DNA of 52,857 bases from Mycobacteriales bacterium (GTDB lineage: Bacteria > Actinomycetota > Actinomycetes > Mycobacteriales > CADCTP01). Positions within the stretch are counted from its first letter, which is position 1. Each line of letters begins with the position of its first letter. Both the position numbers and the translations under genes were made by a program. The stretch covers positions 1 to 52,857 of the forward strand of contig DASYKU010000113.1 in assembly GCA_035995165.1 (NCBI GenBank). Reading direction: 5' to 3'. Positions 1 through 17,204 of this stretch are shown piece after piece. Below the pieces are notes generated by a model. The model was not told where the DNA came from. It saw only the letters and a list, made by a program, of their open reading frames with translations, and searched no databases.

Positions 1-1899
1 CATCGCCGCGGACTCGTCCCGCAGCCGCTTGTAGCCCTCGTCCTCGGCCTCCATCGGGGCGCCGTCGAAGCGCAGCCCCGCATACTCCCGCAGCCGCCAG
101 ATGACGGCCCAGTAGTTGCTGGCCGGCTCGGCGCCGACCTCGCGGATCGCGCGCAGCAGCAGCGGCTCGGTGTGCGGGTTGTGGTCGATCTGGGCCGGTA
201 GCAGCATCCGGGCGATGTCGATGGCGAGGGTCTTGCGCTCGGCCCGGGCCTCGTCCATCGCCTCGTCGTACTGCTCCTGCGAGTCGAAGTGGCTCGGCTG
301 CGGCTCGGGCACCACCGCCCACGGCGACAGCGTGCCAGCCGGCGCCTTGGCCAGGTCGATGTGCTCGGAGAACTCCCGCAGTTCCGGCATCTCGCACAGC
401 GCCGCCAGCGGTCCGGACGGGTCGAGCATGACCGTACGGATCCCGCGCCGGGCGGCCTGGTAGCAGATCGTCGCTTCCAGCACCGACTTGCCCGCGCCCT
501 GCCGGCCGACGATCGGGACCAGCCCGGACGCCTTCTTCACCTCGGTCGAGTAGTGGGTGTCGAACATCACCGGCCGCCGTACGGAGCTGGCGATGATGCC
601 GATCAGCGGCCCGCGGCGGTCGCCGAGCCGGGTGCTCACCTGCGGCAGCCCGGCCGCGAAATACCGCATCGGCAGACGGCGGCGGTACGCGGTGGACGCC
701 ACCGGTTCACCCGGCACGAACTCCCGGACCAGCGACGCCTGGCCCTTCGTCAGGACCGCGTCCATGTGCCGGCGCTTGTAGAGGTCGCGCACCGCGCGGA
801 CCCGCTCCATGCACTCGTTCTCGCTCCGGCCCGCGACGGCCAGCCGATACCACCCCTCCGTACGGGTGGAGACCAGGTCGTCGCCGTGGCTCATCTCGTC
901 CTCGATGCGCCGGGCATGCTCGGCCTGCCGGGTCAGCGCGGCCGGCTCGTCCACGTCGTGGATCTGGTACTGCCGCTGCTGGTCGCGGATGCGCAGCAGC
1001 GCCTTGGTCACGCCGGTGCGGGTCGCGGTGCCGGCCAGCACGTCGACCGTCGAGCTCAGCTCGACCGGGAACGGCAGCGCGTCGGTCGCCGACAGCCACG
1101 GGCCGCGCGGGTCCGGGACGATCATCTCCGGCATCCGCCCCAGCGTCACCACCGCCACGTACGAGGTCAGCGGGTCGTGGTCGGGGCGGCGGTCGATCAT
1201 CTGCACGCACCGGCCCAGCGGGGTCGGACGGACCACCACGCCCTCGGTGAACGCGTGCAGGTCGGTGGTCTCCCAGTCCGCGGACAGCCCCGACGGGGAC
1301 ATCAGCCCGCCCGGCGCCGGCAGCCCGAGCCCGATCGAGCGGTGCAGCAGCCACTCCATCCGGCGCGGGTCGGCCGGGTGGCCGCCGATGCCGGGGGAGC
1401 CGACCGCCTCGCCGATCAGCTCGACGTCGCGGTCGAGGTGCGCCAGCTCGCGGTTGCCGGCCTTGCCCATCAGGCTTTCCATCATCGCGGTGAGTCGGCC
1501 CCGCGGCGCGATCTCGACGCCGAGGTAGACCTCCTTCTCCGCGGTGGCCGACGTCCGCAGGTAGCGCTGCTGGGCCAGCAGGTTGTCCGACCAGGTGCTG
1601 TCCTCGGACCCCGGCAGCGGGGACGGGGTGCGCGCGTGCAGGCCACGGGCCCAGGCCGCGACCGGGTACGGCCGGGAGGTGACGCGGATACGGATCCGGC
1701 GCCCGGCCAGGCCGGCGAAGCCGATGCCGGCGGCGTCGACCATGCCGCGGCGGTCGCCGTCGGCACGCCAGGCCCAGCGGGCCGGCGGCACCACGTACCA
1801 GGCGTACGCGGAGCGCTTGGTCAGGGTGATGTTCCCGGCTATCTCACGCAGGGACAGGGCGAGCGGCGCGGTGCGCGGCTCCTCGCGACGGCGGGCCAT
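1..1899 (-). CDS. VirB4/TraC-like conjugation ATPase (3' end outside window)
   Basis: An uninterrupted minus-strand frame runs from an ATG at 1899 off the left edge, giving the first 633 residues. A Walker A motif, GRQGAGKS, sits near residues 465-472 (Lys471), after a long N-terminal part. The following stretch (VMLDPSGPLAALCEMPEL) resembles the region after the P-loop in VirB4/TraC ATPases of type IV secretion and conjugation machines, which energise assembly and transport at the inner face of the membrane. The start codon overlaps the upstream gene's stop as TGATG, so the two are probably translationally coupled. The VirB3/PrgI-like and VirB2-like neighbours support the assignment. The Walker B and C-terminal parts lie outside the window, so completeness cannot be judged. 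Confidence 0.8.
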   Translation of the reverse strand, partial: MARRREEPRTAPLALSLREIAGNITLTKRSAYAWYVVPPARWAWRADGDRRGMVDAAGIGFAGLAGRRIRIRVTSRPYPVAAWARGLHARTPSPLPGSEDSTWSDNLLAQQRYLRTSATAEKEVYLGVEIAPRGRLTAMMESLMGKAGNRELAHLDRDVELIGEAVGSPGIGGHPADPRRMEWLLHRSIGLGLPAPGGLMSPSGLSADWETTDLHAFTEGVVVRPTPLGRCVQMIDRRPDHDPLTSYVAVVTLGRMPEMIVPDPRGPWLSATDALPFPVELSSTVDVLAGTATRTGVTKALLRIRDQQRQYQIHDVDEPAALTRQAEHARRIEDEMSHGDDLVSTRTEGWYRLAVAGRSENECMERVRAVRDLYKRRHMDAVLTKGQASLVREFVPGEPVASTAYRRRLPMRYFAAGLPQVSTRLGDRRGPLIGIIASSVRRPVMFDTHYSTEVKKASGLVPIVGRQGAGKSVLEATICYQAARRGIRTVMLDPSGPLAALCEMPELREFSEHIDLAKAPAGTLSPWAVVPEPQPSHFDSQEQYDEAMDEARAERKTLAIDIARMLLPAQIDHNPHTEPLLLRAIREVGAEPASNYWAVIWRLREYAGLRFDGAPMEAEDEGYKRLRDESAAM

Positions 1900-3464
1900 C
1901 AGCGGTCCTTCCTCGCGGGGAGCAGGATCCGCGCCTCGAGCGCGGCGTGCGGGTCGGTCTTCTCGTCCTTCGCCGGCTTGGCGTGCCGGCCGCCGGTCGG
2001 GCTGACGGTGAGCGGGCCCTGGTACTCAGCCTCGTGCGGGTCGGCCCGGAACGGGCTGCGAGGCGCGTCCTGCTGCTCTGCGTGCTGCGGTTCTGCGTGC
2101 TGCGGTTCTGCGTGCTGCGGATCGGCCGGGCGCGCGTGCGCCGAGTGCTGCGCGGCCGAACCCTCCTGCGCAGGGTGCTGTGCGGCGGGCCGGTCCTGGG
2201 CGGGGTGCTGCGCGGCGGGCCGGTCCTGGGCCGGGTGCTGTGCGGCCGGGCGCGACTCGGGCCGTTCCTGCGCCGGGCGTGCGTGCGCGGGGTGTTGGAC
2301 CGGGCCCTGCGCCGCCGCGCCGTCGCCGCCGGCGTGCGCCGCCGGCCGGGCTGCGGCCGGCGTGCCCTGTCCGTTGGTCTGCGCCGCCGGCCGGACCGCG
2401 GCCGGCGTCCCCTGTCCATTGGTCTGTGCCGCCGGCCCGGCCACGGCCGGCGTCCCCTGTCCATTGGTCTGTGCCGGCGGCCGGACGTGCGCCGCGCTGC
2501 CCTGCCCGTTGGACCGGGCGGGCATTGGCCGGCGGACCGGCGCTGCGTTGCCCTGCCCGTTGGACCGGGCGGGTGCGGGCGGACGGACCGGTGCCGCGCC
2601 GGCCTGTGCGGGCGGGCTGACCGGTGTCGCGTCGGCTCGGGCGGGCGTCGGCGGGCGGACCGGAGTGCCCTGCGGCGGCTGGGCGTCGGCGGACGGTCGG
2701 TGCGCCGGCTGCGGGCTGGGCGGCGGCGTCGGGTACCCGAGCGCCGAACTCGCCCGGGCCACGGCCGACGCCGGCACCGGCTGGGCGACCTCGGCGACCG
2801 GGAGATCGTGCGGCTCCGGATCGGGGGCGCGGACGAACCCGTGCACCTCGTCGTGCTCGACCTGCGCCCGACCGGCCTGGTACCGCTCGTCGCTGGCGAT
2901 GCTCCAGGCCGGCGCGGCCTCCACGTACCACTCGTCGGCGGGCACGTCCGGCGTCCAGGCCGGACCGTCGGAGTCCAGCACGTCGAGCGTGGACTCGACC
3001 GCCGGCTCGGCGACCGGCTTGTGCTTGCGACCGACGCGCGCGGCGGTCCGGGACCGCTGTCGCTCCCGCATCGCCAGCACCTTCGGCGGCGTCTCCCGGA
3101 CCCGGATCTTGCCCGGACGCACCAGCAGCGACCGCTCGCCCCGGCGACGTGCCTGCAGCGCCGCCCGCGCCTCCGCGTTGAACAGCGCGGGCAGCGACCG
3201 CAGCGGCCGCTCATGGTCGACGACCAGCATGACGGCGCGGGAGAGCACGACGGACAGCCCGAGCGACCAGATCAGCGACCCGAGCACGCCGGCGGGCCCA
3301 CCCCCGCCGAGCGGGATGAGGACCACCGCGGCGACGAGGAAGCAGGCCAGCCACGTGCCCCAGGCCACGTACCGGGCCTGGATGGGCAGCGTGTACTCGT
3401 CCGGCCCGAGCCAGACCGTGTCGAACTGGTAGACCTCGTCGTCCGGTCGTACGGTCAGCGCCAT
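1899..3464 (-). CDS. VirB3/PrgI-like membrane protein with long repeat-rich tail
   Basis: 521 residues. The first ~90 carry two adjacent membrane helices (about 34-55 and 57-82) after a short soluble start, the layout of VirB3/PrgI-type components that usually precede VirB4. A basic stretch follows (QARRRGERSLLVRPGKIRVRE region), then ~300 residues of Pro/Ala/Gln/Gly-rich sequence. That part has three copies of a 15-residue unit containing AQTNGQGTPA and several copies of AAQHPAQDRP, ending in QHAEP repeats. The C-terminal ~60 residues are less repetitive. The start has a good ribosome site (GGAGGGAGACAG before ATG), and the gene ends in a TGATG overlap with the ATPase gene. The VirB3/PrgI reading rests on topology and position, not strong sequence identity. 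The tail could be a flexible cytoplasmic or cell-wall-spanning arm. Confidence 0.6.
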   Translation of the reverse strand: MALTVRPDDEVYQFDTVWLGPDEYTLPIQARYVAWGTWLACFLVAAVVLIPLGGGGPAGVLGSLIWSLGLSVVLSRAVMLVVDHERPLRSLPALFNAEARAALQARRRGERSLLVRPGKIRVRETPPKVLAMRERQRSRTAARVGRKHKPVAEPAVESTLDVLDSDGPAWTPDVPADEWYVEAAPAWSIASDERYQAGRAQVEHDEVHGFVRAPDPEPHDLPVAEVAQPVPASAVARASSALGYPTPPPSPQPAHRPSADAQPPQGTPVRPPTPARADATPVSPPAQAGAAPVRPPAPARSNGQGNAAPVRRPMPARSNGQGSAAHVRPPAQTNGQGTPAVAGPAAQTNGQGTPAAVRPAAQTNGQGTPAAARPAAHAGGDGAAAQGPVQHPAHARPAQERPESRPAAQHPAQDRPAAQHPAQDRPAAQHPAQEGSAAQHSAHARPADPQHAEPQHAEPQHAEQQDAPRSPFRADPHEAEYQGPLTVSPTGGRHAKPAKDEKTDPHAALEARILLPARKDR

Positions 3465-3498
3465 CTGTCTCCCTCCGCCGGCCGGTGCGTGTTCGGAC

Positions 3499-3756
3499 TC
3501 AGCCGAGGATCAGGTTGACCAGCTGCTGACCGAAGGCGAAGAGGGTGCCGCCGGCAGCAATCAGGATGATGCCGAGGAAAAGGTTCACGGCCACGACCGC
3601 GTTCTCCCGCGTCCGGCCCTGGTGGGCGCGGGACATGATCACCACTGCCGCGAAGGCGAACAGCAGTGGGATGATGTATTTGACGATCCACGCCACGACA
3701 CCGGTCGTGTTGATGGTGGGCTCGGCGGCCAGGACGTGGACGGCTAGATGCTGCAC
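3499..3756 (-). CDS. small two-helix VirB2/TrbC-like membrane protein
   Basis: 85 residues starting with GTG at 3756, preceded by AGGGAG about 8 bases upstream. Two hydrophobic helices cover residues ~20-42 and ~52-84, separated by a short basic loop (SRAHQGRTREN). The small size, two helices, polar loop and position at the head of a VirB3-like/VirB4-like run match VirB2/TrbC pilin-like or channel proteins. No clear signal-peptide cleavage site is visible. It is first in the minus-strand operon, 34 bases upstream of the VirB3-like gene. An alternative reading is a small actinobacterial membrane protein unrelated to pilin; the context makes the secretion role more likely. Confidence 0.6.
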   Translation of the reverse strand: MQHLAVHVLAAEPTINTTGVVAWIVKYIIPLLFAFAAVVIMSRAHQGRTRENAVVAVNLFLGIILIAAGGTLFAFGQQLVNLILG

Positions 3757-4071
3757 GCCCAGTGCTCCCTTCGGCGGTAACGCGACGCTGCGACGACACT
3801 ACGGCACGTGCTCGAATCTCGTGAGTGCAAGTCTAATGCGACTCAATGATCACGTCGCCTCGGCCGGTCTGACCAGGAGAAATGGCAAACCGTCCCCTGC
3901 CGCCCCGTATCGGTCCACACCGTACGCGCAGATGACGCCTGCGATGCGTCTCCGGAAGTCACTCACACTCTGTTTCACTTATAGTACGTTCGGTGGTCAG
4001 TTTGTCACTGTCACATCCTTGGGGTTAAACCACTGCCTCCGGCGCCGACCATCGACGGGGAGGAGCGGGCG
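3757..4071. promoter_or_regulatory. 315-bp divergent intergenic region, AT-richer, with repeated GTCAC/TCACT motifs
   Basis: This stretch separates the secretion-like operon (minus) from the ribbon-helix-helix gene (plus) and has no convincing gene. Its right half (about 3955-4020) is much richer in A/T than the surroundings. It holds a TATAGT box at 3980-3985 that could serve as a -10 for the plus-strand gene. The same segment has GTCACTC (3958), TTCACTT (3974), GTCACTG (4004) and GTCACAT (4010). These are direct-repeat-like elements of the kind ribbon-helix-helix regulators or partition proteins bind. A minus-strand promoter is expected but not clear. Confidence 0.45.
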
Positions 4072-4407
4072 ATGGACTCCGTAATGGGGGAGCCCGGGGA
4101 TTCTGCGCCTAAGCGGCGCAATCGCACGAGCCCCGATCGGGTGCAACGTAGTTTCTATCTGCCGCGAGATCTGGTCGATCGCGCGCGAGCGGCGGTCCGG
4201 GCGACCTCCGGGGCCCCGGGCGAGGCCTACAACCTGAGCGAGCTCGTGGGACGGGTGCTTGCTGTCGAGGTACGCCGACTGGAGCAGCGTTACAACGACG
4301 GGAATCCGTTCCCGCCGGTTGATTCCGTTCCACCCGGTCCGGGTCCGGCCGGAGTGGAACGCATCCGGAACGGTGTGCTGAACCCGCGCAAGCGGCCGGC
4401 CCACTGA
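4072..4407 (+). CDS. ribbon-helix-helix DNA-binding protein
   Basis: 111 residues, ATG start with a strong ribosome site (GGGGAGGAG about 7 bases upstream). Residues ~25-75 have the pattern of a ribbon-helix-helix fold: a basic lead (RNRTSPDRVQ), a beta strand (RSFYLP), helix A (RDLVDRARAAVRATSG) and helix B (YNLSELVGRVLAVEVRRLEQRYNDG). The C-terminal 35 residues are Pro- and Arg-rich. Such proteins act as plasmid or ICE partition (centromere-binding) proteins or as autorepressors. It lies divergent from the secretion-like operon and convergent with the 903-residue protein gene. This suggests it regulates the block or is a leftover partition component. No ParA partner is visible in the window. 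Confidence 0.65.
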   Translation: MDSVMGEPGDSAPKRRNRTSPDRVQRSFYLPRDLVDRARAAVRATSGAPGEAYNLSELVGRVLAVEVRRLEQRYNDGNPFPPVDSVPPGPGPAGVERIRNGVLNPRKRPAH

Positions 4408-4425
4408 TCCTTATGTGATCAGTGG
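4401..4425. terminator. bidirectional hairpin containing both stop codons
   Basis: Perfect 9-bp arms CCACTGATC (4401-4409) and GATCAGTGG (4417-4425) around a 7-base loop. The plus gene's TGA (4405-4407) is in the left arm and the minus gene's TGA (complement of 4419-4421) in the right arm. There is no U-tract, as is common in high-GC actinomycetes. Confidence 0.7.
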
Positions 4426-7130
4426 CAGTCGCAGTTGCCGGTGCGGTGCACGGCGACCCAGTCCGCGTACTCGGCCGGGTCGTCCTCGTACGCGTCCAGG
4501 GCGTTGACGACGATGCTCGACACGACCTTGAGCACGTCCACCGACGGGCTGGTCCAGACCTCGTCCAGGACCTGCTCGTTGATGGTGAGCGCGTCGTAGA
4601 CCGCGGCCTGGCGGGGGTCCTCGGGGCGGCCGCGGCGGCTGCGCGGGCCGGCCTGCTGCGATGCGGCCCGGGGACCCGCCGGCGGACCGGCGTTCGGGGC
4701 CGGGCGTCCCGGCGGGGCGAACTGGGGCCGGTCGAACTGCGGCGGCGGCGTCGTCCCGTACGGCTGGCCGAACGGAGGCTGCGGCTCGGGCTCGGCCGGC
4801 CGGTTGAACTGGTCCGCCAGCGCGCTGAACTCCGGATCCCACTGCGGCGGACCCGACCGCGAAGCCTCCTGCCCCGCCCCACCCCGATCCCCGCCCAGCC
4901 GCTCTTCCGGCGGTCCCTGCCGCGGCCAGTCCTGAGCCCGGTCACCCTGCGACGGGCGTCCCTGCCGTGACCGATCCGCCGGCCCGGGTCCCTGCTGCGG
5001 CCAGTCCTGTGAGGGGGCGCCCTGCGGCGGGCGCGGACTCTGCGGGGGTGCCTGGGGCGACCAGTCCTGGGGCTGACCCGACCGGGGCTGACCCGACTGG
5101 GACGAGCCGCCCTGGGGGCCGGCCTGGGGCGGACCGTCTTGAGTCGGCCGGCTGTCGGATGGCCGGTCCGGAGACGGTCGGTCCTGGGACGGTCGGTCCT
5201 GGGACGGTCGGTCCTGGGACGGTCGGTCCTGGGACGGTCGGTCCTGGGACGGGTCGTCCTGCGGGCGGGGAGTCCGGGCGGGGGTCTGGGGCGGGACGCC
5301 CAGGCCGAAGCGGGTGTCCGCGGGCGGGCCGAATTGCGCCCCGGGCTGGATCTCGTGCCCGGACCGGCCGGCCTGCGGACCGCGCGGGTGTTCACGGGCC
5401 CAGTCCTCGAACGGGTCCGGCGGCGGCCCGGCAGCCGGGGCCGCGGCACCAGCCGGCGCCGGCGCCGGCAGCGGCATCTGCGGCGCGGGCAGCGGCGGGT
5501 GGCCGGTCGCGCCGCCGAGGACGGTGCCCATGGGGGTGACCGCGTCGCCACGAGGTACGGGTGGGGGCGTGGCACGAGCCGGCGGCGCCGTCTCGTCCGG
5601 GCGCGCAGCCAGGGACTGCGCGAAGCTGGACGTGGGGGCCGGCGAGCGTGGGGTCTCGGACGCGAGCGGTGGAACCCCCCACGCGGCCGCACCGGCCGGC
5701 AGGTCCAGCCCGGTCAGCGGCAGACCCGGGATCGGCGTGGTCAGCTCGGCCGCGGTCTGGTCGTCCCGCGCCGGCTCAGCACCCAGCTCCAACGCCCCGA
5801 CCGACCGCGACTCCTCCGCAGGCTCGCCGTGCGCCTCCCCGACGGGCTCCTCGGCCCCAGCCGGCAGCTCAGCGGCCTCCGATCCCTCGGCGACCGACTG
5901 GTCGACGGGCTCCTCAGCCGCTACCGGCTCCCCGGGGTCCTTCGACTCCGCAGCGACAGGCTCGGCCCCAGCCGGCAGCTCGGCGGCGTCCGACTCCGCG
6001 GGAACGGGCTCCTCACGGGCCTCCCCGGCCGCAGCCGGCAGCTCGGCGGCGTCCGACTCCGCGGGGGACTCCGCAGCCGACAGCTCGGCGGCATCCGACT
6101 CCTCGACGACAGGCTCCCCGGCCCCCCGCTCCCCGGCCCCGCGCTCATCGGTCGCCGCCTCGTCCGCTTCGGGTTCGTCGATGGCGACCGGCTGCGCAGC
6201 GGCCTCGGCCGCGGTGTCCGGCTCGTCGACCAGAGGCTCGTCGGCGGCATCAAGACCATCCGGCTCCGAGGCGTCCGGCTCGTCGTCGGCATTGAGGCCG
6301 TCCGGCTCCGAGGCGTCCGGCTCGGCGTGGTCGGCGCCGGCGATCGGCAGCCCGTCGATGTCCGGCTCGTCCTCGTGCTCACCCGGCTCGTGGATCACCA
6401 GCTCGTCCACCGGCTCGGCAGCCTCGACTACGGCGGGCTCGTCGGGCCGCGAGACCGGCGCCGCCGCGGCGGGCTCGGTCAGCGGCGCGCTCTCCTCGCC
6501 CGGCTGCGCTCCGAGCGGCTCCAAGGCGACGGGCTCCAACCCGCCCGAGTCGCTCGACCTCTCGGCGCCGGGAGCCCCGGCAACAGGCTCGGACAGCCCC
6601 CCGACCGGCTCCTCCGGAGACACCATCGGCTCCGGCCCGGACCCGATCGGCTCGGTCCCGGACCCGATCTGCTCCGGCGCGGCCCCCGTCTGCTCCCGCG
6701 CGGATCCCGACGACTCGCGCGCGGCCCGCGCGGCCTCCGACGGCTCGCGCGCGGCCTCCGACGGCTCGCCGGCCGATGCCTGCGATGAGGCCGGTTCGCG
6801 GTCGGGCGACGCGCTCGGGCGCTGCCAGCGGCTGGAATCCTCCGACGAGGAGGGGGAGGAAGGGGAGGTCGGCGCCGCCCATCGATTCCCCGCCCCGGTC
6901 CGCGCCGCCGCGGCCGGCGGGAACACCACCGGCTCCCGCGTCGTCTCCGCCGACGCCCGCGGCGAGGGCGGCGTCACCGAGGGGGACGGCGGCGGGCGCG
7001 GCGCCTTCTTCCGAGCCGCGGGCGGCGCCTGCCGCCCGAGCGACGCACGCAGGATCAACCAGGTGCCGAGAGCGAGCAGAACCACGCCGACCATGACCAC
7101 CACGATCGCGAGCGGACGCATGTCGCTCAC
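4419..7130 (-). CDS. 903-residue membrane-anchored, repeat-rich protein of unknown function
   Basis: One N-terminal membrane helix (residues ~5-28, after the start MSDMRPLAIV) is followed by a short basic, Pro-rich stretch. Then come ~450 residues very rich in Glu, Asp, Ala, Ser and Pro with decaying repeats (SDAAELPA, DASEPDGL). A Gln/Pro/Ser/Arg-rich part includes five identical copies of DRPSQ. The last ~70 residues are ordered and non-repetitive (VYDALTINEQVLDEVW ... VVSSIVVNALDAYEDD) and end in CDCH, probably the functional domain. The start is GTG at 7130, with an ATG three codons later. The GTG overlaps the stop of an 11-codon leader frame. The topology suggests an anchored protein with a long spacer and a terminal module. 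I do not recognise the family; proximity suggests, but does not prove, a role with the secretion-like genes. Confidence 0.7.
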   Translation of the reverse strand: MSDMRPLAIVVVMVGVVLLALGTWLILRASLGRQAPPAARKKAPRPPPSPSVTPPSPRASAETTREPVVFPPAAAARTGAGNRWAAPTSPSSPSSSEDSSRWQRPSASPDREPASSQASAGEPSEAAREPSEAARAARESSGSAREQTGAAPEQIGSGTEPIGSGPEPMVSPEEPVGGLSEPVAGAPGAERSSDSGGLEPVALEPLGAQPGEESAPLTEPAAAAPVSRPDEPAVVEAAEPVDELVIHEPGEHEDEPDIDGLPIAGADHAEPDASEPDGLNADDEPDASEPDGLDAADEPLVDEPDTAAEAAAQPVAIDEPEADEAATDERGAGERGAGEPVVEESDAAELSAAESPAESDAAELPAAAGEAREEPVPAESDAAELPAGAEPVAAESKDPGEPVAAEEPVDQSVAEGSEAAELPAGAEEPVGEAHGEPAEESRSVGALELGAEPARDDQTAAELTTPIPGLPLTGLDLPAGAAAWGVPPLASETPRSPAPTSSFAQSLAARPDETAPPARATPPPVPRGDAVTPMGTVLGGATGHPPLPAPQMPLPAPAPAGAAAPAAGPPPDPFEDWAREHPRGPQAGRSGHEIQPGAQFGPPADTRFGLGVPPQTPARTPRPQDDPSQDRPSQDRPSQDRPSQDRPSQDRPSPDRPSDSRPTQDGPPQAGPQGGSSQSGQPRSGQPQDWSPQAPPQSPRPPQGAPSQDWPQQGPGPADRSRQGRPSQGDRAQDWPRQGPPEERLGGDRGGAGQEASRSGPPQWDPEFSALADQFNRPAEPEPQPPFGQPYGTTPPPQFDRPQFAPPGRPAPNAGPPAGPRAASQQAGPRSRRGRPEDPRQAAVYDALTINEQVLDEVWTSPSVDVLKVVSSIVVNALDAYEDDPAEYADWVAVHRTGNCDCH
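5176..5250 (-). repeat. five perfect 15-bp tandem repeats
   Basis: GGTCGGTCCTGGGAC is repeated five times without change, with degenerate copies on each side (5161-5175 and from 5251). The unit keeps the frame and encodes DRPSQ on the minus strand inside the 903-residue protein. The perfect identity points to recent expansion by slippage. Confidence 0.95.
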
Positions 7131-7347: not shown

Positions 7348-7848
7348 TCATTCTGTCGGCGGGTCGACCTCGTCCGGGTCGAGCCCGAGCAGGTTGGCGA
7401 CCTGTTCGACCACGACGTCATGGACGAGGTCGGCCAGCTCGGTGCGGTCCAGGGCGCGCAGTTCCAGCGGGCGCCGGTAGACCACGATCCGGGGTGGGGT
7501 GGGGCGTCCGGCCGGGTCCGACCCGGCCGGCAGCAGCCGGGCGAGCGGCACCGCGCCGTCCTCGATGACGTCGGTGCCCCAGACCAGCGCCTCGGGCGGC
7601 CCGTCCGGCACCGCCGGCACGTCCTCGACCGCGAACTCGACCGACTCCAGCTTCGTGGCCCAGCGGGCCTCGAGGTGCTCGACGGCGTCGAGCACGAGGT
7701 CGTCGAACTGCTCGGCCCGGCTGCGGGACAGCGGCACCCCGCTCGGCACGAGCAGGCCGCGCAACCCACGCCCGCGGCGGTCCCGCCGGATCCCCGGCCG
7801 GGTCCGGCGGCGGGCCGGCGCGAGCCGGTCACCAGGCGGCGGGCTCAT
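7348..7848 (-). CDS. zincin-like metallopeptidase family protein with degenerate active site
   Basis: 166 residues from the ATG at 7848. That start is supported by a TACGAT -10 box 7 bases upstream. After a basic, poorly conserved N-terminus (~40 residues) comes the small acidic domain of the minimal zincin family (FDDLVLDAVEHLEARW, VVYRRPLELRAL). In active members the last helix carries HExxH. Here the matching position reads HDVVVEQVANLLGLDPDEVD (His143 onward), so the catalytic Glu and second His are missing. I recall related actinobacterial proteins with a similar HEVVVEQ variant, so this may be a non-catalytic subfamily. It is a single-gene unit with its own terminator. Confidence 0.7.
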   Translation of the reverse strand: MSPPPGDRLAPARRRTRPGIRRDRRGRGLRGLLVPSGVPLSRSRAEQFDDLVLDAVEHLEARWATKLESVEFAVEDVPAVPDGPPEALVWGTDVIEDGAVPLARLLPAGSDPAGRPTPPRIVVYRRPLELRALDRTELADLVHDVVVEQVANLLGLDPDEVDPPTE

Positions 7849-7855
7849 AAGCGGG

Positions 7856-7861
7856 ATCGTA
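7856..7861 (-). promoter_or_regulatory. -10 box for a leaderless metallopeptidase transcript
   Basis: TACGAT on the minus strand lies 7 bases before the ATG at 7848, with no Shine-Dalgarno sequence between. This places transcription start at or next to the A of ATG. Confidence 0.55.
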
Positions 7862-7968
7862 CCCGGGTGGACGCCCCGGAGAGGAGATGCTGCGACACGC
7901 CCGGGTGAACCGTGGCACGACACGGCCGGCGGGTGTCGTAGGTGCCGCCCGGCGGGCGAATCCGGGGC

Positions 7969-7974
7969 TATGGT
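7969..7974 (+). promoter_or_regulatory. -10 box upstream of a GTG mini-frame and DUF3499
   Basis: TATGGT is followed by 6 bases and then GTG at 7981, the spacing seen at leaderless starts elsewhere in the window. Confidence 0.45.
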
Positions 7975-7980
7975 GCCGCC

Positions 7981-8016
7981 GTGGGTGGGATCGGCTCAGC
8001 GTGGGAGGCGCGGTAG
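7981..8016 (+). CDS. possible 11-codon leaderless leader peptide before DUF3499
   Basis: GTG at 7981 opens MGGIGSAWEAR and stops with TAG at 8014-8016, two bases before the ATG of the DUF3499 gene. The downstream ribosome site GGGAGG lies inside the mini-frame, so translating it would pass over and expose that site. Speculative, but the spacing to the -10 box is right. Confidence 0.3.
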   Translation: MGGIGSAWEAR

Positions 8017-8018
8017 GC

Positions 8019-8399
8019 ATGGTCAGACATGTGCGCCGCTGCTCTCGTACCGGTTGCCCGGATTCCGCCGTGGCCACTCTCACGTACGTGTACTCGGACT
8101 CGACCGCCGTCGTGGGCCCGCTCGCGACCTACGCCGAGCCCCACTCGTACGACCTGTGCGAGGAGCACGCCCGCCGGCTGACCGTGCCCAAGGGCTGGGA
8201 GGTCGTCCGGCACGAGGGCGAGTTCAGCCTGCCGATGCCGAGCAGCGACGACCTCGAGGCGCTGGCCGACGCGGTCCGCGAGGCGGCCCGTCCGGAGCGG
8301 CGCACGCTCGCGGTCGACGCGGGTGCCAGTACCGGCGCGAAGCAGGACCCCGGCACCGGCCGCCGCGGCCATCTCCGAGTTATCCCCAGCCCCCAGTAG
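8019..8399 (+). CDS. DUF3499 family protein
   Basis: 126 residues from ATG 8019, with GGGAGG about 10 bases upstream. The N-terminus MVRHVRRCSRTGCPDSAVATLTYVY and the motif LATYAEPHSYDLCEEHARR match the conserved core of DUF3499, a small actinobacterial family with Cys pairs (CSRTGC, DLCEEH) that suggest a zinc-binding knuckle. The last ~40 residues are variable. It precedes phosphomannomutase, an arrangement common in actinomycetes. The biochemical role is unknown. An in-frame upstream ATG at 7887 is less likely because it lacks a ribosome site and conservation. Confidence 0.85.
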   Translation: MVRHVRRCSRTGCPDSAVATLTYVYSDSTAVVGPLATYAEPHSYDLCEEHARRLTVPKGWEVVRHEGEFSLPMPSSDDLEALADAVREAARPERRTLAVDAGASTGAKQDPGTGRRGHLRVIPSPQ

Positions 8400-8438: not shown

Positions 8439-9782
8439 GTGCGAGATCTGTCCTCCTTAGTCAAGGCGTACGACGTGCGCGGCACCGTGCCCGACCAGCT
8501 CGACGAGCAGGTCGCCCGGGCATTCGGGGCCGCCTTCGTGCGCGTGACCGGCGCACCGCGCATCGTTCTCGCGCATGACATGCGGGACTCCAGCGTGCCG
8601 TTGTCGGCCGCGTTCGCCGACGGCGCAACCAGCCAGGGCGCCGACGTGGTGGACGCCGGGCTGGGCTCGACCGACCTGCTCTACTTCGCCTCCGGCTCGC
8701 TCGACCTGCCCGGCGCGATGTTCACCGCCAGCCACAACCCGGCCCGCTACAACGGGATCAAGATGTGCCGGGCCGGGGCGAAGCCGGTCGGCCAGGACAC
8801 CGGCCTGCGGGAGATCCGCGCGCTGGCCGAGCAGGACCTGCCGCCGGTGGGCCCGCCCGGCCGGGTGGAGGAGCGGGACCTGCTCCCGGCATACGCGGCC
8901 TACCTGCGGGGACTGGTCGACCTGTCCGGGATCCGGCCGCTGACCGTGGTCGTCGACGCCGGCAACGGGATGGCCGGCTACACGGCCCCGGCCGTGCTGA
9001 CCGCGCCGCTGGCGGTCGTCCCGCTCTACTTCGAGCTCGACGGGACGTTCCCGAACCACGAGGCCAACCCGCTGGAGCCGGCCAACCTGCGCGACCTGCA
9101 GGCCAAGGTGGTCGAGGTCGGCGCCGACCTCGGGCTGGCCTTCGACGGCGACGCCGACCGCTGCTTCGTGGTCGACGAGCGGGGGGTCCCGGTCTCGCCG
9201 TCCGCGGTGACCGCCCTGGTCGCGGTGCGCGCGCTGGCCGACCACCCGGGCGGCACGATCATCCACAACCTGATCACCTCGCGGGCGGTGCCGGAGATCA
9301 TCCGCGAGCACGGCGGTGTCCCCGTGCGGACCCGGGTCGGGCACTCGTTCATCAAGCAGCAGATGGCCGAGAACGACGCGGTGTTCGGCGGCGAGCACTC
9401 GGCCCACTACTACTTCCAGGACTTCTGGCGGGCCGACACCGGCATGCTCGCGGCGCTGCACGTGCTGGCCGCGCTCGGCACCGCCGACGTCCCGCTCTCC
9501 ACCCTGGCCTCGGCGTACGAGCGGTACGTGGCCTCCGGGGAGATCAACTCGACCGTCACCGACGCGCCCGGGCGGACCGCCGCGGTCGAGGAGGCGTACG
9601 GGAAGCGGGACGGGGTATCGGTCGACCACCTCGACGGGCTGACCGTCTCGCTGCCCGACGGCAGCTGGTTCAACCTGCGTCCGTCCAACACCGAGCCGCT
9701 GCTGCGGCTGAACGTGGAAGCCCCCGACGAGAAGACCCTGGCCGAGCTGCGGGACGCCGTGCTGGCCCTGGTGCGAGCCTAA
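8439..9782 (+). CDS. manB: phosphomannomutase/phosphoglucomutase
   Basis: 447 residues, GTG start directly after a leaderless promoter. It interconverts mannose-6-phosphate and mannose-1-phosphate (or the glucose analogues) for GDP-mannose, glycan and cell-wall supply. All signatures of the alpha-D-phosphohexomutase family are present. These are the phosphoserine loop TASHNPARYNG (Ser98), the metal loop FDGDADRC (236-240), the sugar loop GEHSAHYYF (318-326) and the phosphate loop RPSNTEPLLRLN near the C-terminus. Length is normal. It is followed closely by Trm112, an SIS protein, a cation efflux protein and mannose-6-phosphate isomerase, forming a mannose-metabolism operon. Confidence 0.95.
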   Translation: MRDLSSLVKAYDVRGTVPDQLDEQVARAFGAAFVRVTGAPRIVLAHDMRDSSVPLSAAFADGATSQGADVVDAGLGSTDLLYFASGSLDLPGAMFTASHNPARYNGIKMCRAGAKPVGQDTGLREIRALAEQDLPPVGPPGRVEERDLLPAYAAYLRGLVDLSGIRPLTVVVDAGNGMAGYTAPAVLTAPLAVVPLYFELDGTFPNHEANPLEPANLRDLQAKVVEVGADLGLAFDGDADRCFVVDERGVPVSPSAVTALVAVRALADHPGGTIIHNLITSRAVPEIIREHGGVPVRTRVGHSFIKQQMAENDAVFGGEHSAHYYFQDFWRADTGMLAALHVLAALGTADVPLSTLASAYERYVASGEINSTVTDAPGRTAAVEEAYGKRDGVSVDHLDGLTVSLPDGSWFNLRPSNTEPLLRLNVEAPDEKTLAELRDAVLALVRA

Positions 9783-9792
9783 GGAGATGGCG

Positions 9793-9975
9793 ATGAACCT
9801 CGACCCGACGCTGCTGGAGATCCTGGCCTGCCCCGACGACCACGCGCCGCTGGAGGTGCACGAGGAGACCAACGAGCTCTGGTGCACCCAGTGCGACCGG
9901 GCCTACCCGGTGCAGGACGACATCCCGGTCCTGCTGCTGGATGAGGCCCGGCGCCGGGGCGTGCCCGCACCGTGA
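9793..9975 (+). CDS. Trm112 family protein
   Basis: 60 residues. The ATG at 9793 is preferred over the ATG at 9787 because AAGGAG (9781-9786) abuts the latter but is 6 bases from the former. The sequence MNLDPTLLEILACPDDHAPL ... LWCTQCDRAYPVQDDIPVLL is the classic small zinc-ribbon Trm112 fold, though the first zinc knuckle has one Cys and the second two. Eukaryotic Trm112 activates methyltransferases. In actinomycetes this gene sits between phosphomannomutase and the SIS protein, as here, with no proven role. Confidence 0.9.
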   Translation: MNLDPTLLEILACPDDHAPLEVHEETNELWCTQCDRAYPVQDDIPVLLLDEARRRGVPAP

Positions 9976-10007
9976 ACTGCCCCGCTGCGCAGGACGTCTG
10001 AGGTTTC

Positions 10008-11108
10008 ATGAGCATCGCACTGGACGAGTCGCTCCTGGACGACGAGCGCCGGCTGGCCGAGGCCGACCGCGGCGGGTTGCTGCGGTCGGTCGCGACCGCC
10101 GGCGCCCAGGTCCGGGAGAGCCTGGCGCTGGCCGCCGAGGCCGAGGTCCCGGCCGTGCTGGCCGGCCTCCGGCCGCGGGCCGTGCTGGTCACGGCCGACC
10201 CCGGCGCCGACGACGTCGCGGTCATGCTGGCGGCGCTCGCCGACCGGCCGGACTCGGTCGCGCCGATGGTGCGCCAGGACGGCCCGGTGCTGCCGGTCTG
10301 GGCCGGTCCGGTGGACGTCCTGCTCGCGGTCAGCGCCTCGGCGACCGCGGCCGCGCCGCCCTCGCTGGTCGAGGCGGCGGCCCGGCGCGGGCTGACCGTG
10401 TTCGGCACCGGCCCGGCCGACTCGCTGCTGCACGAGGCCTGCGGCCGCAACCGGGCGGCGTACGTGCCGCTCCCGGGCGGGCGGCACCCGCGGGCCGCGC
10501 TCTGGGCCCCGCTGGTCCCGCTGCTGCTGGCCGCGGGCGAGCTCGGCGTGGTCCCGAACCCCGGGCCGGACCTGCGCGGCTGCGCCGACCTGCTCGACGC
10601 GCTGGCCGAGCGCTGCCGACCCGGCTCGGAGACGTACGGGAACCCGGCCAAGTCGCTGGCCCTGGACCTGGCCGAGTCGGTGCCGGTGGTGATCGGCAGC
10701 ACCCCGCCCGGGGGCGCGGCCGCCCGCCGGCTCGCCGGTCTGCTGGCCGCGGCCGGCCGACCCGCGGTCTGGGGCGCCCTGCCGGTCGGGCCGCAGCGGC
10801 TGGCCGGCCTGGTCACCGCGCCGGCCGACGCCGGCCCGGACGACGACCTGTTCCGGGACCGGGTCGACGACCCGGGCCTGGTCCGGTCCCGGCTGGTGCT
10901 GGTTCGGGCGGGCGACGAGCCCGAGCAGGTCCGGGCCCAGGTCGACGAGCTGGTCGCGGACTGCGGCCGGCGCGGCGTCCCGGTCACCGAGGTGATGGCC
11001 GAGGACGCGGCCGGCCCTGTCGGCCGGCTCGCCTCGGTCGTGGCCCTGCTCGACTTCACCGCGGCGTACGTCGGGATCGCCTCCGGCACGACAGAGGAGA
11101 GTCCGTGA
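10008..11108 (+). CDS. SIS-domain protein of the phosphoglucose/phosphomannose isomerase family, probably degenerate
   Basis: 366 residues with GAGG before the ATG. The fold layout (two sugar-isomerase-like halves; a C-terminal part with DLFRDRVDDPGL and VSEVMAEDA-like segments) and operon position match the bifunctional phosphoglucose/phosphomannose isomerase family. However, the sugar-phosphate loop SGNTxET expected in the first half is replaced by SASATAAAPPS. Catalysis is therefore doubtful; it may be regulatory. It ends in a GTGA overlap with the cation efflux gene. The true isomerase function for the operon is covered by manA downstream. Confidence 0.7.
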   Translation: MSIALDESLLDDERRLAEADRGGLLRSVATAGAQVRESLALAAEAEVPAVLAGLRPRAVLVTADPGADDVAVMLAALADRPDSVAPMVRQDGPVLPVWAGPVDVLLAVSASATAAAPPSLVEAAARRGLTVFGTGPADSLLHEACGRNRAAYVPLPGGRHPRAALWAPLVPLLLAAGELGVVPNPGPDLRGCADLLDALAERCRPGSETYGNPAKSLALDLAESVPVVIGSTPPGGAAARRLAGLLAAAGRPAVWGALPVGPQRLAGLVTAPADAGPDDDLFRDRVDDPGLVRSRLVLVRAGDEPEQVRAQVDELVADCGRRGVPVTEVMAEDAAGPVGRLASVVALLDFTAAYVGIASGTTEESP

Positions 11109-12073
11109 GCGCTGAAGGCGGCACCAGGGCGATCATCGCGGCGCTGGGGGCGAACCTCGGCATCGCCGTCGCGAAGTTCGTGGGCTTCCTGCTCACCGGC
11201 TCGTCGTCGATGCTGGCCGAGTCGGCCCACTCGGTCGCCGACTCGGGCAACCAGGGCCTGCTGCTGATCGGCGGCAAGCGGGCCCGGCGGCAGGCGACCG
11301 AGAACCACCCGTTCGGCTTCGGCCGCGACCGATACTTCTACGCGTTCGTGGTCGCCCTGGTCCTGTTCACCCTCGGCTCGCTGTTCTCCCTGTACGAGGG
11401 CTACCACAAGCTGCGCGACCACGGCGCCGAGCTGGACCGCCCGCTGATCGCGGTGATCATCCTGCTGGTCGCGATCGGCCTGGAGGGCTTCTCGCTGCGC
11501 ACCGCGGTGCACGAGTCCAACGAGATCCGGGACACGTCGAGCTGGTTCCAGTTCATCCGCCGGGCCAAGGCGCCGGAGCTGCCGGTCGTGCTGCTGGAGG
11601 ACACCGCGGCGCTGCTCGGCCTGGTCTTCGCGCTGGCCGGCGTCGGGCTGTCCTGGGCCACCGGCGACGTCGTCTGGGACGCCTGGGGCACGATCATGAT
11701 CGGGCTGCTGCTCGGCGTCATCGCGATCATCCTCATCATCGAGACCAAGAGCCTGCTCATCGGCGAGGGCGCGTCCCCGCAGACGCTGGACGCGATCGTC
11801 GCGGCGCTGGTCGGGCCGGGTGTGGACCGGGTCATCCACCTGCGCACCCAGTACCTCGGGCCGGACGAGCTGCTCGTCGCGGCCAAGATCGCGGTGCCCC
11901 GCACGACCGTGATCGAGCGGGTCGCCACCGCCATCGACGACGCGGAGCGGCGTGTCCGCCAGGCGGTCCCGGAGGCCCGGCTGATCTACTTGGAGCCCGA
12001 CCTGGAACGCCCGGCCGGCCGCCGGGCGGTCGGCGCCGACCCCGACACGCCGGAGTTCGAGCACTCGCCGTGA
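11105..12073 (+). CDS. cation diffusion facilitator (CDF) transporter
   Basis: 322 residues from GTG at 11105, overlapping the previous stop (GTGA). Several hydrophobic segments cover residues ~7-220, including the family helix LAESAHSVADSGNQGLLLIG, whose His and Asp are typical metal ligands. A later helix carries LLEDTAALLGLVFA. The C-terminal ~90 residues are the soluble cytoplasmic domain (LDAIVAALVGPGVDRVIHLRTQYLGPDELLVAAKI). The family exports Zn, Fe, Co or Mn in exchange for protons. The substrate cannot be read from the sequence. Its place inside a sugar-phosphate operon is conserved in actinomycetes; a link through the metal need of phosphomannose isomerase is only a guess. Confidence 0.88.
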   Translation: MSAEGGTRAIIAALGANLGIAVAKFVGFLLTGSSSMLAESAHSVADSGNQGLLLIGGKRARRQATENHPFGFGRDRYFYAFVVALVLFTLGSLFSLYEGYHKLRDHGAELDRPLIAVIILLVAIGLEGFSLRTAVHESNEIRDTSSWFQFIRRAKAPELPVVLLEDTAALLGLVFALAGVGLSWATGDVVWDAWGTIMIGLLLGVIAIILIIETKSLLIGEGASPQTLDAIVAALVGPGVDRVIHLRTQYLGPDELLVAAKIAVPRTTVIERVATAIDDAERRVRQAVPEARLIYLEPDLERPAGRRAVGADPDTPEFEHSP

Positions 12074-13349: not shown

Positions 13350-13372
13350 GCTCAGTTTCGGGGCTACTGAGC
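13350..13372. terminator. bidirectional hairpin between manA and the repeat protein gene
   Basis: GCTCAGT (13350-13356) and ACTGAGC (13366-13372) form a 7-bp stem with a 9-base loop in the 27-base gap between converging genes. The right arm overlaps the minus-strand stop codon (complement of 13372-13374). Confidence 0.55.
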
Positions 13373-16300
13373 TAGACCGAGCCGACGGAGCGGCGGACGA
13401 GTTCGTCGACGCGGCGCGCGAGCTCCTCGTCCTCCAGCTCCACCGGACCGAGCGTCTCGGCCCAGGTCCGCTTCGCGCCGGTGCTGTCGGCCCACTCCAG
13501 CGCGCCGCTCCAGCGCTGTCGCCCACCGCCGGCCGGCTCGACCAGCGCGACCTGCATCGCATACCGGGCCGATCGGATCTGGACACCGGCGACGCCGCCG
13601 GCCGAGGTGATCGAGTGGGCTTCGTACCCCAGCGACCGCAGCAGCCTGGCCAGCCCGGCCGGCGACGCGACGTCGTCGCCGTACGAGTCGCGGCTGACCA
13701 GGGTCGCGCCCTCCCAGGGCGGGCTGCAGAGGAAGCGTGCCTCACCCGGGAACGTACGGTCGGCGAGGCCGGACTCGAGCAGCCCGCGCGTCTCCCGGGC
13801 CAGGTCGGTGACGGCGGTGAGCACCTGCTCGACCGCGGTGAGCAACGCGCCGAGCCGCTGCGGCGCGGACGGCCCGTTCGCGACGACCAGCGCGGCCTGC
13901 AGGTGCCGGCGGGCGGCCTCGACCTGCCGCGAGATCACCGCGGCGGCCGGCTCGTCCAGCGGCGCCTCCAGGACCGGCCGCGCGGCCTGCGCGGGCTCGG
14001 GCGCACCGATCGGATACACCGCGACGCCGTCCCCGGCAGCCGACGCCCCCGGCACCGGCTCGGCCGTCCAGACCGGAAGGTCGGGCCGCGCGAACGCGGC
14101 GGCGCCACTGAGATCGGCACCGGTGAGCGGATCGCTCCACTCGCCGGACGGTTCCGCGGCCCACGGGTCGGCGGCTGCCGGCATCCGGACCTCTCCTGTC
14201 ATCGGGGCTGACTCGTCCTCACGGACCGGCGGGACCAGGCTGAGTGAACGCGGCTCGGCCGAGACGGTGTCGCCGTGCCAGCCCGCGCCGTCCGGGTCCT
14301 CGACCGGGACCGTCAGCCGCTCGGCCGCCTGGGCCGCCGCGACCGTACGGATCGGGTGGCCGGGGTCGTCCTCGTCGTCCGGGTCGACCACGATCCAGCC
14401 GGCGAGCGCGGCGGTCTTGGCCGGCGAGGCCCAGCCGCGCAGTCCCTCGCCGTCGACATCCTCCGGCGTGTACGGGTCGGCCGGGGCGTCCTCGACCTCC
14501 GGCTCCGCCTCGTCCTGCGGCTCGTCGGCCCGCGCGTGCTCCCCGATGCTCGCGACGGGCTCTGTCGCCTCCACGGCCTCGGCACTCCCCCGCGGAGCAG
14601 CGACCTCTCCGACCTCACTGATCCCCTGCGGCGCAGGGCTGTCCTCGGATCCGCCGATCTCTCGCGGCGTCGCGGTCTCTTCGGTCTCGAGCGTTCTCCA
14701 CAGAGCAGGGGCCTCTTCGACCTCATCGATCCCTTGCGGCGCAGGCGTCTCCTCGGTCCCGTGGATTTCCTCCGGAGCAGCGGTCTCTTCGGTCTCGGAG
14801 GTTCCCCACGGAGCAGGCGTCTCTTCGAACTCACTGATCCCTTGCGGCGCAGGGATCTCTTCGGATCCGCCGACACCTCGGGGCGTAGCGGCGCCTTCGC
14901 TTTCGCGGATTCCCTGCGGAGCGGCGGTCTCTTCGGTCTCGGAGATCCCCTGCGGAGCAGCGATCTCGTCGAACCCACTGATCCCCTGCGGCGCAGTGGT
15001 TTCTTCGGTTCCAGCGATCCCCCAAGGCGCAGGCACCTCTGGGGTCCCATAGATCTCTTGCGGCGCTGCCGTTTCATGGATCGCGGAGGTCTGTCCGTGA
15101 ACTGAGGTCTCTGAAGGAGGCTCAGCGGTTTCTCGCGCCTCGCCCTCGGACTGCTCAGCCGTCCGTCCGGACGGCTCGGGCTCGGCGACCCCGGGCGCGG
15201 GCGTCTCGCCTGACCCTGCGGTCTCCGGGGCCGCTGCTGTCTCGCCCCTCCCAGCAGCCACGGGCGCCGGGATTCCGTGGCGGGCCGGTCCTGTGGAGCG
15301 CGTGTCGTCTGCCGTCGCCGGGACCGGACGGGGCCTCCGCAGGGGAGTCGCCCAGGCGCGCAGGCCCGCGCCATCGAGGGCTTCCGGGTCGGGTTCGCCC
15401 AGCGGTTCGTCCGGCGGCTGGGCGGCCGCAAGGCCAAGACCGTCGACGTCCTCCAACATCGCCGGACCCTCGTCGGCGAGACCCGCCGGATCGTCGTCGA
15501 GCTCCTCGACCGACTCCTCCGCGGCCGTCGGCGCCCCCAGCCCGAGCCCGACCTCGGCGTCCTGTCGATCGGCAGCACCCGGCACTCCCGCGCCCTGCGC
15601 CGGGATCCCGGGCGCGTCGGTGCTCGCGGCCTGGGTGGAACCGTCCAGAGTCGCGATCTCGTCAGCAGACCCGACCCATGCCACGTCCGGAGCACCCGCG
15701 GAAGCCAGCGGGCCGGCGCTCGGCGCCGGAACCCCCCGCGCGTCGGTGTCGCTCGCCGGGGACGACACGGCGCTCCGCGCCGGGACTCCGCGCGCATCCG
15801 CGTCGGAGGCGCCCATAGGCACGCTCTGCGCGCGAATCCCGTGGGCGCCCGTGTCCGCCGCGGGCTCCGGCCTAGCCCCCTGCGCCCCGTGCGCATCCGT
15901 GCCGGCGGTGAACGGAGACGCGCTCTGTGCGGGGCCGTGGGCGTCGGTATCGGCGGACGCCGGAGGCATCGCGCTCTGTGCGGGGATTCCGTGGGCGTCG
16001 GTGTCAGCCACAGGTGCCACAGCGTTCTGCGCCGGAATCCCGTGCGCATCTGTGTCGGCGGCGGCCGGAGGCGCGCTCTGGACGGGGACTCCGTGGGCGT
16101 CGGTGTCAGCCGCAGGTGCCGCCACAGCGTTCTGCGTCGGAATCCCGTGCGCATCCGTGTCGGCGGCGGCCGGAGCCGCGCTCTGCGCCGGAATCCCGTG
16201 GGGGTCGGTGTCAGCCGGGGGCGGCAATACAGCGCTCTGTGCGGGGATTCCGTGCGGGTCCGTGGCCGGCGCGGCTCCGGACAGCGGATCCGCCGCGCCG

Positions 16301-16770
16301 GTGTGCGCAGCACCCGGCCGACCCCTCGGCCGCGGCGCCACCGCCGTACCCGCCTCGTCGTCGACGGTGAACGCCCGCGGCGGCACCTCGACGAACGCGT
16401 CCGGCCACGTCGTCGCGCCCGACCGCGGTGCCGGCGGCCCGACCCGCGTCCCCCGGTCCAGCGCCCCGTACGCCGAGTGCAGCAGCCCGAGCGTGCCCCG
16501 CGCCGCCGACGCCGCCTCGTCCAGCAGCGCGGCCGTGCGCTCGGCCCGCAACCGCCCGAACCCGGCGATCATCGGGTCCTCGGGCAGGTGCCCCGGCACC
16601 GGCCGCAGCGCGTCGGCGAGGTCGGCGCAGGTGTCCGACAGCGTCCGGGCCGCGCTGATCAGCGCCTGCACCCGCTGCCGTACCTGTTCGAACGCCTCGT
16701 CGTCGGATCCGACCACCCCGGCGGGATCGTCGGCGGCCGAGCCGAGCACGTCGCTCAGGCGTTCCTGCAC
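13372..16770 (-). CDS. 1132-residue repeat-rich protein of unknown function
   Basis: The start chosen is GTG 16770 with GGGAG 4 bases upstream; an ATG at 16851 is in frame but would overlap the MerR gene. Three parts are visible. (1) Residues ~1-110 are helical and non-repetitive (FEQVRQRVQALISAARTL ... LLDEAASAARGTLGLLHSAYG). (2) About 800 residues are low-complexity, with two unrelated 13-14-residue repeat families (DTDAHGIPAQSA type and EETAAPQGISE type) and acidic linkers. (3) Residues ~930-1132 form a well-ordered domain with a helical hairpin and a beta-rich end (GVAGVQIRSARYAMQVALVEPAGG, RRWSGALEWAD-like). No membrane helix or catalytic motif is recognised. The ordered ends flanking a spacer suggest a bridging or scaffolding protein. 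The family is not recognised. Confidence 0.75.
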   Translation of the reverse strand: MQERLSDVLGSAADDPAGVVGSDDEAFEQVRQRVQALISAARTLSDTCADLADALRPVPGHLPEDPMIAGFGRLRAERTAALLDEAASAARGTLGLLHSAYGALDRGTRVGPPAPRSGATTWPDAFVEVPPRAFTVDDEAGTAVAPRPRGRPGAAHTGAADPLSGAAPATDPHGIPAQSAVLPPPADTDPHGIPAQSAAPAAADTDAHGIPTQNAVAAPAADTDAHGVPVQSAPPAAADTDAHGIPAQNAVAPVADTDAHGIPAQSAMPPASADTDAHGPAQSASPFTAGTDAHGAQGARPEPAADTGAHGIRAQSVPMGASDADARGVPARSAVSSPASDTDARGVPAPSAGPLASAGAPDVAWVGSADEIATLDGSTQAASTDAPGIPAQGAGVPGAADRQDAEVGLGLGAPTAAEESVEELDDDPAGLADEGPAMLEDVDGLGLAAAQPPDEPLGEPDPEALDGAGLRAWATPLRRPRPVPATADDTRSTGPARHGIPAPVAAGRGETAAAPETAGSGETPAPGVAEPEPSGRTAEQSEGEARETAEPPSETSVHGQTSAIHETAAPQEIYGTPEVPAPWGIAGTEETTAPQGISGFDEIAAPQGISETEETAAPQGIRESEGAATPRGVGGSEEIPAPQGISEFEETPAPWGTSETEETAAPEEIHGTEETPAPQGIDEVEEAPALWRTLETEETATPREIGGSEDSPAPQGISEVGEVAAPRGSAEAVEATEPVASIGEHARADEPQDEAEPEVEDAPADPYTPEDVDGEGLRGWASPAKTAALAGWIVVDPDDEDDPGHPIRTVAAAQAAERLTVPVEDPDGAGWHGDTVSAEPRSLSLVPPVREDESAPMTGEVRMPAAADPWAAEPSGEWSDPLTGADLSGAAAFARPDLPVWTAEPVPGASAAGDGVAVYPIGAPEPAQAARPVLEAPLDEPAAAVISRQVEAARRHLQAALVVANGPSAPQRLGALLTAVEQVLTAVTDLARETRGLLESGLADRTFPGEARFLCSPPWEGATLVSRDSYGDDVASPAGLARLLRSLGYEAHSITSAGGVAGVQIRSARYAMQVALVEPAGGGRQRWSGALEWADSTGAKRTWAETLGPVELEDEELARRVDELVRRSVGSV
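14570..15065 (-). repeat. about 12 degenerate ~40-bp repeats encoding EETAAPQGISE-like units
   Basis: Units of 13-14 codons recur with drift in the 1132-residue protein gene. The segment uses A/T at third positions (GAA, CCT, GGA, TCT) much more than neighbouring genes, so it stands out in composition as well as in repetition. Confidence 0.85.
15715..16265 (-). repeat. about 11 degenerate ~40-60-bp repeats encoding DTDAHGIPAQSA-like units
   Basis: A second, unrelated repeat family in the same gene. The core codons for TDAHGIPAQ are well kept while the spacers between cores vary in length and sequence. Confidence 0.85.
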
Positions 16771-16847
16771 GTCGCTCCCGTCGCGGTCGGGGAAGGGCCG
16801 GGAAGTCCCGGGTGTCCGGCATACTCTCGCGCCCGCCGGGCCAAGGT

Positions 16848-17204
16848 TCAAGCCCGGGGCAAGATCGAATTCCGCGACAGCAGCAGTCGCCGCGCCTTCT
16901 CCTGGTCGAAGTCGAGCGCGGCCAGCGACGACCGGCCGGGACCGGTCAGTTCGGACAGCCGGCGCACGTCGGCGTTGACCACCGGGTCGGTGATCGCCCG
17001 CAGCGCGAAGGCCAGCGCGGACGGGGTCACGTCGTACGACTGCTCGAGCGTGATCGCGTACGCCGCCGCCCGCATCGCCTCCTGGTCGTACCGGCGGTGG
17101 GTGCCGGGGGACCGGTGCGCGGGGAGCAGCCCGAGCGCCTCCCGATAGCGCAGCATGCGGGGTGTCGTCCGGAGCTGCTGTGCCGCAGCGGTGATGCTCA
17201 ACAC
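16848..17204 (-). CDS. MerR family transcriptional regulator
   Basis: 118 residues from GTG 17204; TTG at 17201 is an equally possible start, since GGAGG lies a few bases upstream. An ATG at 17228 would start inside the palindromic operator and is less likely. The N-terminal winged helix-turn-helix is clear: LSITAAAQQLRTTPRMLRYREALGLLPAHRSPGTHRRYDQEAM. A short C-terminal helix region follows without the Cys clusters of metal sensors. It is divergent from sahH and probably represses or activates around the perfect palindrome at 17219-17242, controlling itself and possibly sahH. The effector is unknown. Confidence 0.85.
   Translation of the reverse strand: MLSITAAAQQLRTTPRMLRYREALGLLPAHRSPGTHRRYDQEAMRAAAYAITLEQSYDVTPSALAFALRAITDPVVNADVRRLSELTGPGRSSLAALDFDQEKARRLLLSRNSILPRA

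Follow-up and report, generated by a model that had tools for sequence, protein, structure and literature searches.

The left end of a 52,857-nucleotide stretch of DNA (the window) from an uncultured soil actinobacterium of the genus CADCTP01 carries a block of type IV secretion system (T4SS) genes. The block represents a variant form of a machine already known, not a new kind of system. It is probably a plasmid-type T4SS channel module that CADCTP01 has retained in its chromosome as a standing machine. Its VirB2, PrgI, VirB4 and ribbon-helix-helix (RHH) genes are under purifying selection. An earlier note on this DNA had proposed a standing machine rather than a mobile element. That proposal has held up on three counts: the fixed insertion site shared within the genus, the failure to find a relaxase or coupling protein, and the purifying selection.

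Gene content of the window and source of the left half

The features of the block and of its right-hand border are as follows.

1..1899, minus strand: VirB4-like ATPase, truncated by the contig start; the 633 N-terminal residues, with Walker A, are present
1899..3464, minus strand: PrgI/VirB3-like protein, with conserved first ~130 residues, two predicted membrane helices and a long low-complexity tail
1902..3044, minus strand: Pro/Ala/Gln low-complexity tail of the PrgI-like protein, of variable length, conserved end EARILLPARKDR
3499..3756, minus strand: VirB2-like pilin-type protein with two hydrophobic segments; relatives in the same position
3757..3850, minus strand: virB2 promoter/leader, nearly identical to the congener, with flanking coding DNA differing by ~10%
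4072..4407, plus strand: RHH gene, divergent from virB2 and homologous to a plasmid parA partner gene
4419..7130, minus strand: 903-residue membrane-anchored low-complexity protein with an N-terminal membrane segment
4422..4640, minus strand: its conserved C-terminal helical domain with a CDCH end, found on both contigs of this assembly only
7348..7923, minus strand: Zincin_1 metallopeptidase, an Rv3259-like core gene (profile match), the right-hand boundary
7887..8399, plus strand: DUF3499 core gene (Rv3258c-like), single copy in the assembly
8439-9782: phosphomannomutase, after DUF3499

The minus-strand run of VirB2-, VirB3/PrgI- and VirB4-like genes described earlier was found with every gene in place. 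Window position 1 is the first base of contig C113, and the left half of the block was read on another contig, C61, and not on the window's own molecule. Both belong to an assembly of 162 contigs and 5.37 Mb that is 100% complete and 3.9% contaminated. The first base of C61 falls within the repeat-protein gene, which is followed by RHH, VirB2, PrgI and VirB4, and the overlap with C113 has 83-91% DNA identity. Self-comparison of ~1.96 Mb of the assembly showed at least seven further contig pairs that overlap at their ends with 84-92% identity. The simplest reading, which these overlaps suggest, is that the assembly is a mix of two congeneric populations, and C61 is therefore treated as the congener's version of the left half. 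The comparison within the genus covered one other member, the MAG AVDCRST_MAG41 (G001).

Comparison of the C113 and C61 copies gave dN/dS values of 0.04 for VirB2, 0.11 for PrgI (first 130 residues), 0.15 for VirB4, 0.20 for RHH and 0.09 for the C-terminal 80 residues of the repeat protein.

The left flank and the insertion site

After VirB4, C61 encodes a VirB6-like membrane protein, a VirB8-like protein and a peptidase whose product carries SLT and NLPC_P60 domains. The VirB6-like and VirB8-like assignments are putative, drawn from weak similarity together with position; a PDB profile search with the VirB8 alignment returned nothing usable. Relatives of PrgI, VirB2, VirB6 and the VirB8-like protein are arranged in this order both on chromosomes and on plasmids. 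Beyond the peptidase lie an MFS transporter, a protein with repeated EHDWYR motifs, whiB2, cofD/fbiA and cofE. The earlier note had suggested that a left flank with integrase, relaxase and att repeats would make the block an ordinary ICE; the flank, as read on the congeneric contig, instead continues with genes of the VirB6, VirB8 and peptidase type before core genes begin, and core genes form both borders of the block.

Two of the flanking genes vary in their surroundings. The MFS transporter (9534-11375 of the C61 locus, L027) follows the block in C61 and is missing at the same place in G001. The EHDWYR protein downstream of the block (L027:11528-12115) has two EHDWYR-containing modules, and its relatives immediately follow the peptidase gene in one family (f15; L029, L040) and also on a Streptomyces plasmid (L067).

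Of 24 other genomes of the order, 17 have their metallopeptidase and whiB2 matches at most 360 bp apart; five of these 17 possess a closely related T4SS elsewhere. The block sits between these two genes in both CADCTP01 assemblies. One contig of G001 carries the metallopeptidase and then the beginning of the repeat protein; another has the series VirB8-peptidase-(EHDWYR)-whiB2-cofD. Identity of the flanking genes between the two assemblies is 78-84%. Because the insertion site is the same in both, the insertion is older than the split of these lineages. Other families presumably have other fixed sites for the block; examples are the hisG-infC interval in two families and the folate cluster in another.

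Absence of recognised DNA-processing genes

Profile searches of the whole assembly found neither a MobA or TrwC relaxase (PF03432, PF08751) nor a TraG/VirD4-type coupling protein (PF12696). The only FtsK genes of the genome are a housekeeping one, with what we take to be RNase J and dapA genes nearby, and one of the FHA type, presumably beside a Tad pilus operon. No integrase was seen near the block or in the C61 flank when the genes were read by eye, there is no tRNA in the window or in L027, and in a set of 13 loci from related genomes, none had a plasmid-FtsK relative near the block. These results, with the core genes on both sides, agree with the earlier statement that integrase, relaxase and att site are lacking. 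Since no recognised gene would nick or couple DNA, the cargo is likely to be protein or pilin/envelope material. The FHA-type FtsK may serve as a coupling protein in trans, or an unusual relaxase may be present in this genome.

The VirB4 ATPase and its relatives

The full-length VirB4 on C61 has 886 residues and matches Pfam AAA_10 with 53.7 bits (cut-off 27.5). The profile of its family matches the solved VirB4 structure 4AG5 in the PDB with an E value of 6e-7. Walker A and Walker B are intact, the latter as read on the congeneric contig, and the P-loop and DE motif are invariant in the alignment. The Pfam model CagE_TrbE_VirB gave no match in the genome because it is too narrow for this VirB4 family.

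A sample of 394 genomes of the class included 48 with members of the family. In one bacterial family (f31), 40 of the sampled genomes have a single more distant VirB4 of the family each, which suggests a family-wide chromosomal T4SS there. A tblastn search with the complete VirB4 sequence hit 231 plasmid records, most of them from actinomycetes. In the records that were opened, the same six genes follow one another in the same order; most of these plasmids also carry an FtsK/SpoIIIE gene, and several carry ParA. Examples of such operons (NZ_CP050694.1, NZ_CP107854.1, NZ_CP096567.1) share the order VirB2-PrgI-VirB4-VirB6-VirB8-peptidase with the block, their VirB4 proteins are 31-38% identical, and several have an RHH gene alongside. 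They differ in that FtsK/SpoIIIE is mostly present and ParA often, whereas the block is chromosomal and has neither. In a VirB4 tree of actinomycete relatives only, the window groups with chromosomal members of three families, with key nodes that are weak (0.48-0.84).

The nearest studied relative is, by analogy, the chromosomal operon cmdABCDEF (SCO4126-4131) of S. coelicolor, the subject of a knock-out study in 2009 (PMC2782261). Deletion disturbs sporulation and chromosome segregation and leaves the transfer of an SLP2-derived plasmid unaffected (PMC2782261). Compared by published description only, it is likewise a chromosomal membrane-protein operon with a VirB4-like ATPase (cmdB), but its published gene content names no pilin, PrgI or peptidase (PMC2782261). 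Patescibacteria also have standing T4SS in their chromosomes; these are of the MPF-FATA (monoderm) kind, most of them lack a relaxase, and their VirB4 forms its own clade (PMC12102498). The earlier suggestion of an undescribed system must be given up in view of the plasmid operons with the same six-gene order, the spread of the VirB4 family and the study of cmdABCDEF.

The PrgI/VirB3-like and VirB2-like proteins

Searched alone against a profile library, the PrgI/VirB3-like and VirB2-like proteins matched no real family, and a PDB profile search with the PrgI alignment gave nothing usable. The genes that precede virB4 in the same order elsewhere encode proteins that align with them, in 11 loci for the PrgI/VirB3-like and in 13 for the VirB2-like protein. 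Comparison of gene order, as the earlier note had advised, showed that VirB2 and PrgI recur in this order before virB4 in chromosomes and plasmids alike.

In the PrgI-like protein, the low-complexity tail terminates at the VirB4 start. It has ~380 residues in the window versus ~165 in the congener, and both of its ends are conserved. In other chromosomal members a low-complexity segment of ~200-1030 residues (69-82% P/A/E/D/S/T/Q/G) is carried on the VirB4 N-terminus. Judged by composition and position, these are counterparts of the PrgI tail across the same PrgI/VirB4 gene boundary. The tail had been noticed before and described as unusual, with ~300 residues; its presence stands, its length has to be corrected, and it is less unusual in view of the counterparts.

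The 903-residue low-complexity protein

As first described, this is an anchored repeat protein with a distinct C-terminal domain. Besides its membrane segment it has ~790 low-complexity residues (81% P/A/E/D/S/T/Q/G) and a conserved C-terminus. Its N-terminus was also found in G001, adjoining the metallopeptidase. The protein matched no real family in the profile library. Among 298 genomes of the order, the CDCH domain turned up in this assembly alone; no plasmid had it, and a search of solved folds gave no match (best E 2). It is predicted to be a helical bundle; single-sequence folds of this domain and of the PrgI-like protein are weak (pLDDT 68 and 59).

Further along the window, at 13372-16851 on the minus strand, a 1159-residue low-complexity protein without a family match has ordered ends and a long repetitive middle, in a style like that of the 903-residue protein.

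The RHH gene and the virB2 promoter

The RHH protein matches Pfam CB_ParB_C with 33.9 bits (cut-off 27). Its relatives are encoded directly 3' of parA on three Streptomyces plasmids, and one more is found on a Nonomuraea plasmid. The motif RYN.G.PFP.V...GPGP is common to the RHH protein and the plasmid relatives. A tblastn search of plasmids with the RHH protein alone was too insensitive, and the relatives were found by profile search of the loci. Likeness to a type I RHH-ParB partition system lies in the CB_ParB_C match and the plasmid parA partners; the difference is that here the gene has no neighbouring parA, with no ParA between RHH and its neighbours in the window, and no centromere-like repeat array was found in 3740-4090. 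The existence of an RHH gene had been noted correctly. Its label as a generic regulator had not, and an orphan ParB-type partition protein fits better.

An RHH gene divergent from VirB2-PrgI-VirB4, as in the window, occurs in six genomes of another family, four of which consist of a single contig, and no parA was detected beside it in any of them. Since the same divergent layout is seen in these six genomes, the pairing of RHH and T4SS is recurrent.

The ~90 bases before virB2 and the first codons of virB2 are almost invariant between the two populations. The candidate operator here is an imperfect palindrome at 3793-3822. A structured RNA in the virB2 leader was considered and rejected, with no Rfam match and folding no better than that of shuffled sequences.

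Proposed mechanism and alternatives

In the proposed history, an ancestor of CADCTP01 would have acquired the T4SS channel of an actinomycete plasmid, inserted between its Rv3259-like metallopeptidase gene and whiB2. VirB4 would be the motor for assembly and export, and VirB2, PrgI, VirB6 and VirB8 would form the pore. The peptidoglycan would be opened by the SLT and NlpC/P60 enzyme. The RHH protein, formerly a ParB-type centromere binder of the plasmid, would now bind the divergent promoter, perhaps at the palindrome, and control the operon. Export of protein or envelope material is the most likely function, and chromosome handling of the cmd kind is the main rival.

In that rival reading the block would be a VirB4-motor membrane complex for chromosome segregation, septation or development, and not for export. 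The precedent is cmdABCDEF: cmdB is VirB4-like, the operon is chromosomal, and its deletion affects segregation and sporulation and not plasmid transfer (PMC2782261). The block also lacks a relaxase, and its RHH protein is of the partition type. This reading is nevertheless rather unlikely, as no PrgI and NlpC set is described for cmd (PMC2782261); in addition, the organism is uncultured.

Still less probable is a block that remains in a mobile element, as an integrated plasmid or ICE using an unrecognised relaxase or an FtsK-type pump in trans. Core genes on both sides, the same site in two congeneric assemblies, the lack of an integrase, tRNA or FtsK beside the block and the lack of MobA, TrwC and TraG in the genome all speak against it. 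On its side are the close relatives on plasmids with FtsK and ParA. A missing relaxase is also compatible with mobility, since actinomycete elements of the FtsK/TraB type need none (PMC3218068).

Two paralogous copies of the block in one genome are improbable. Such a genome would explain why repeat protein, RHH, VirB2, PrgI and VirB4 are present twice in one assembly, but end overlaps of the same kind in at least seven other contig pairs are the mark of two mixed congeneric populations, and the VirB4 proteins of C113, C61 and G001 are at roughly equal distances from one another. The single-copy flank of each copy was weighed on both sides, and duplication was rejected in favour of the mixed assembly on the contig-end overlaps elsewhere and these flanks.

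A decaying remnant without present function, which the missing parA, coupling protein and any recognised relaxase might suggest, is very improbable and disfavoured by the selection test, given intact reading frames in two populations, dN/dS of 0.04-0.2 and an almost invariant promoter region.

Implications

Conjugation surveys found surprisingly few T4SS in actinobacteria (PMC3158045). The full channel set without a recognised relaxase or coupling protein is present at fixed chromosomal sites in several families, in two of them with a plasmid-partition-type RHH gene alongside. A tentative extension of the standing-machine reading is that actinomycetes may have repeatedly domesticated the plasmid T4SS channel. 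The coupling ATPase and relaxase would have been dropped, the RHH partition protein kept as a switch, and long disordered segments added (the PrgI tail, the VirB4 extension and the anchored 903-residue protein), possibly to yield a standing machine, for export or in the envelope, that has substrates of its own. The role of a standing actinomycete T4SS becomes testable by knock-out in cultivable relatives with the RHH-VirB2-PrgI-VirB4 arrangement.
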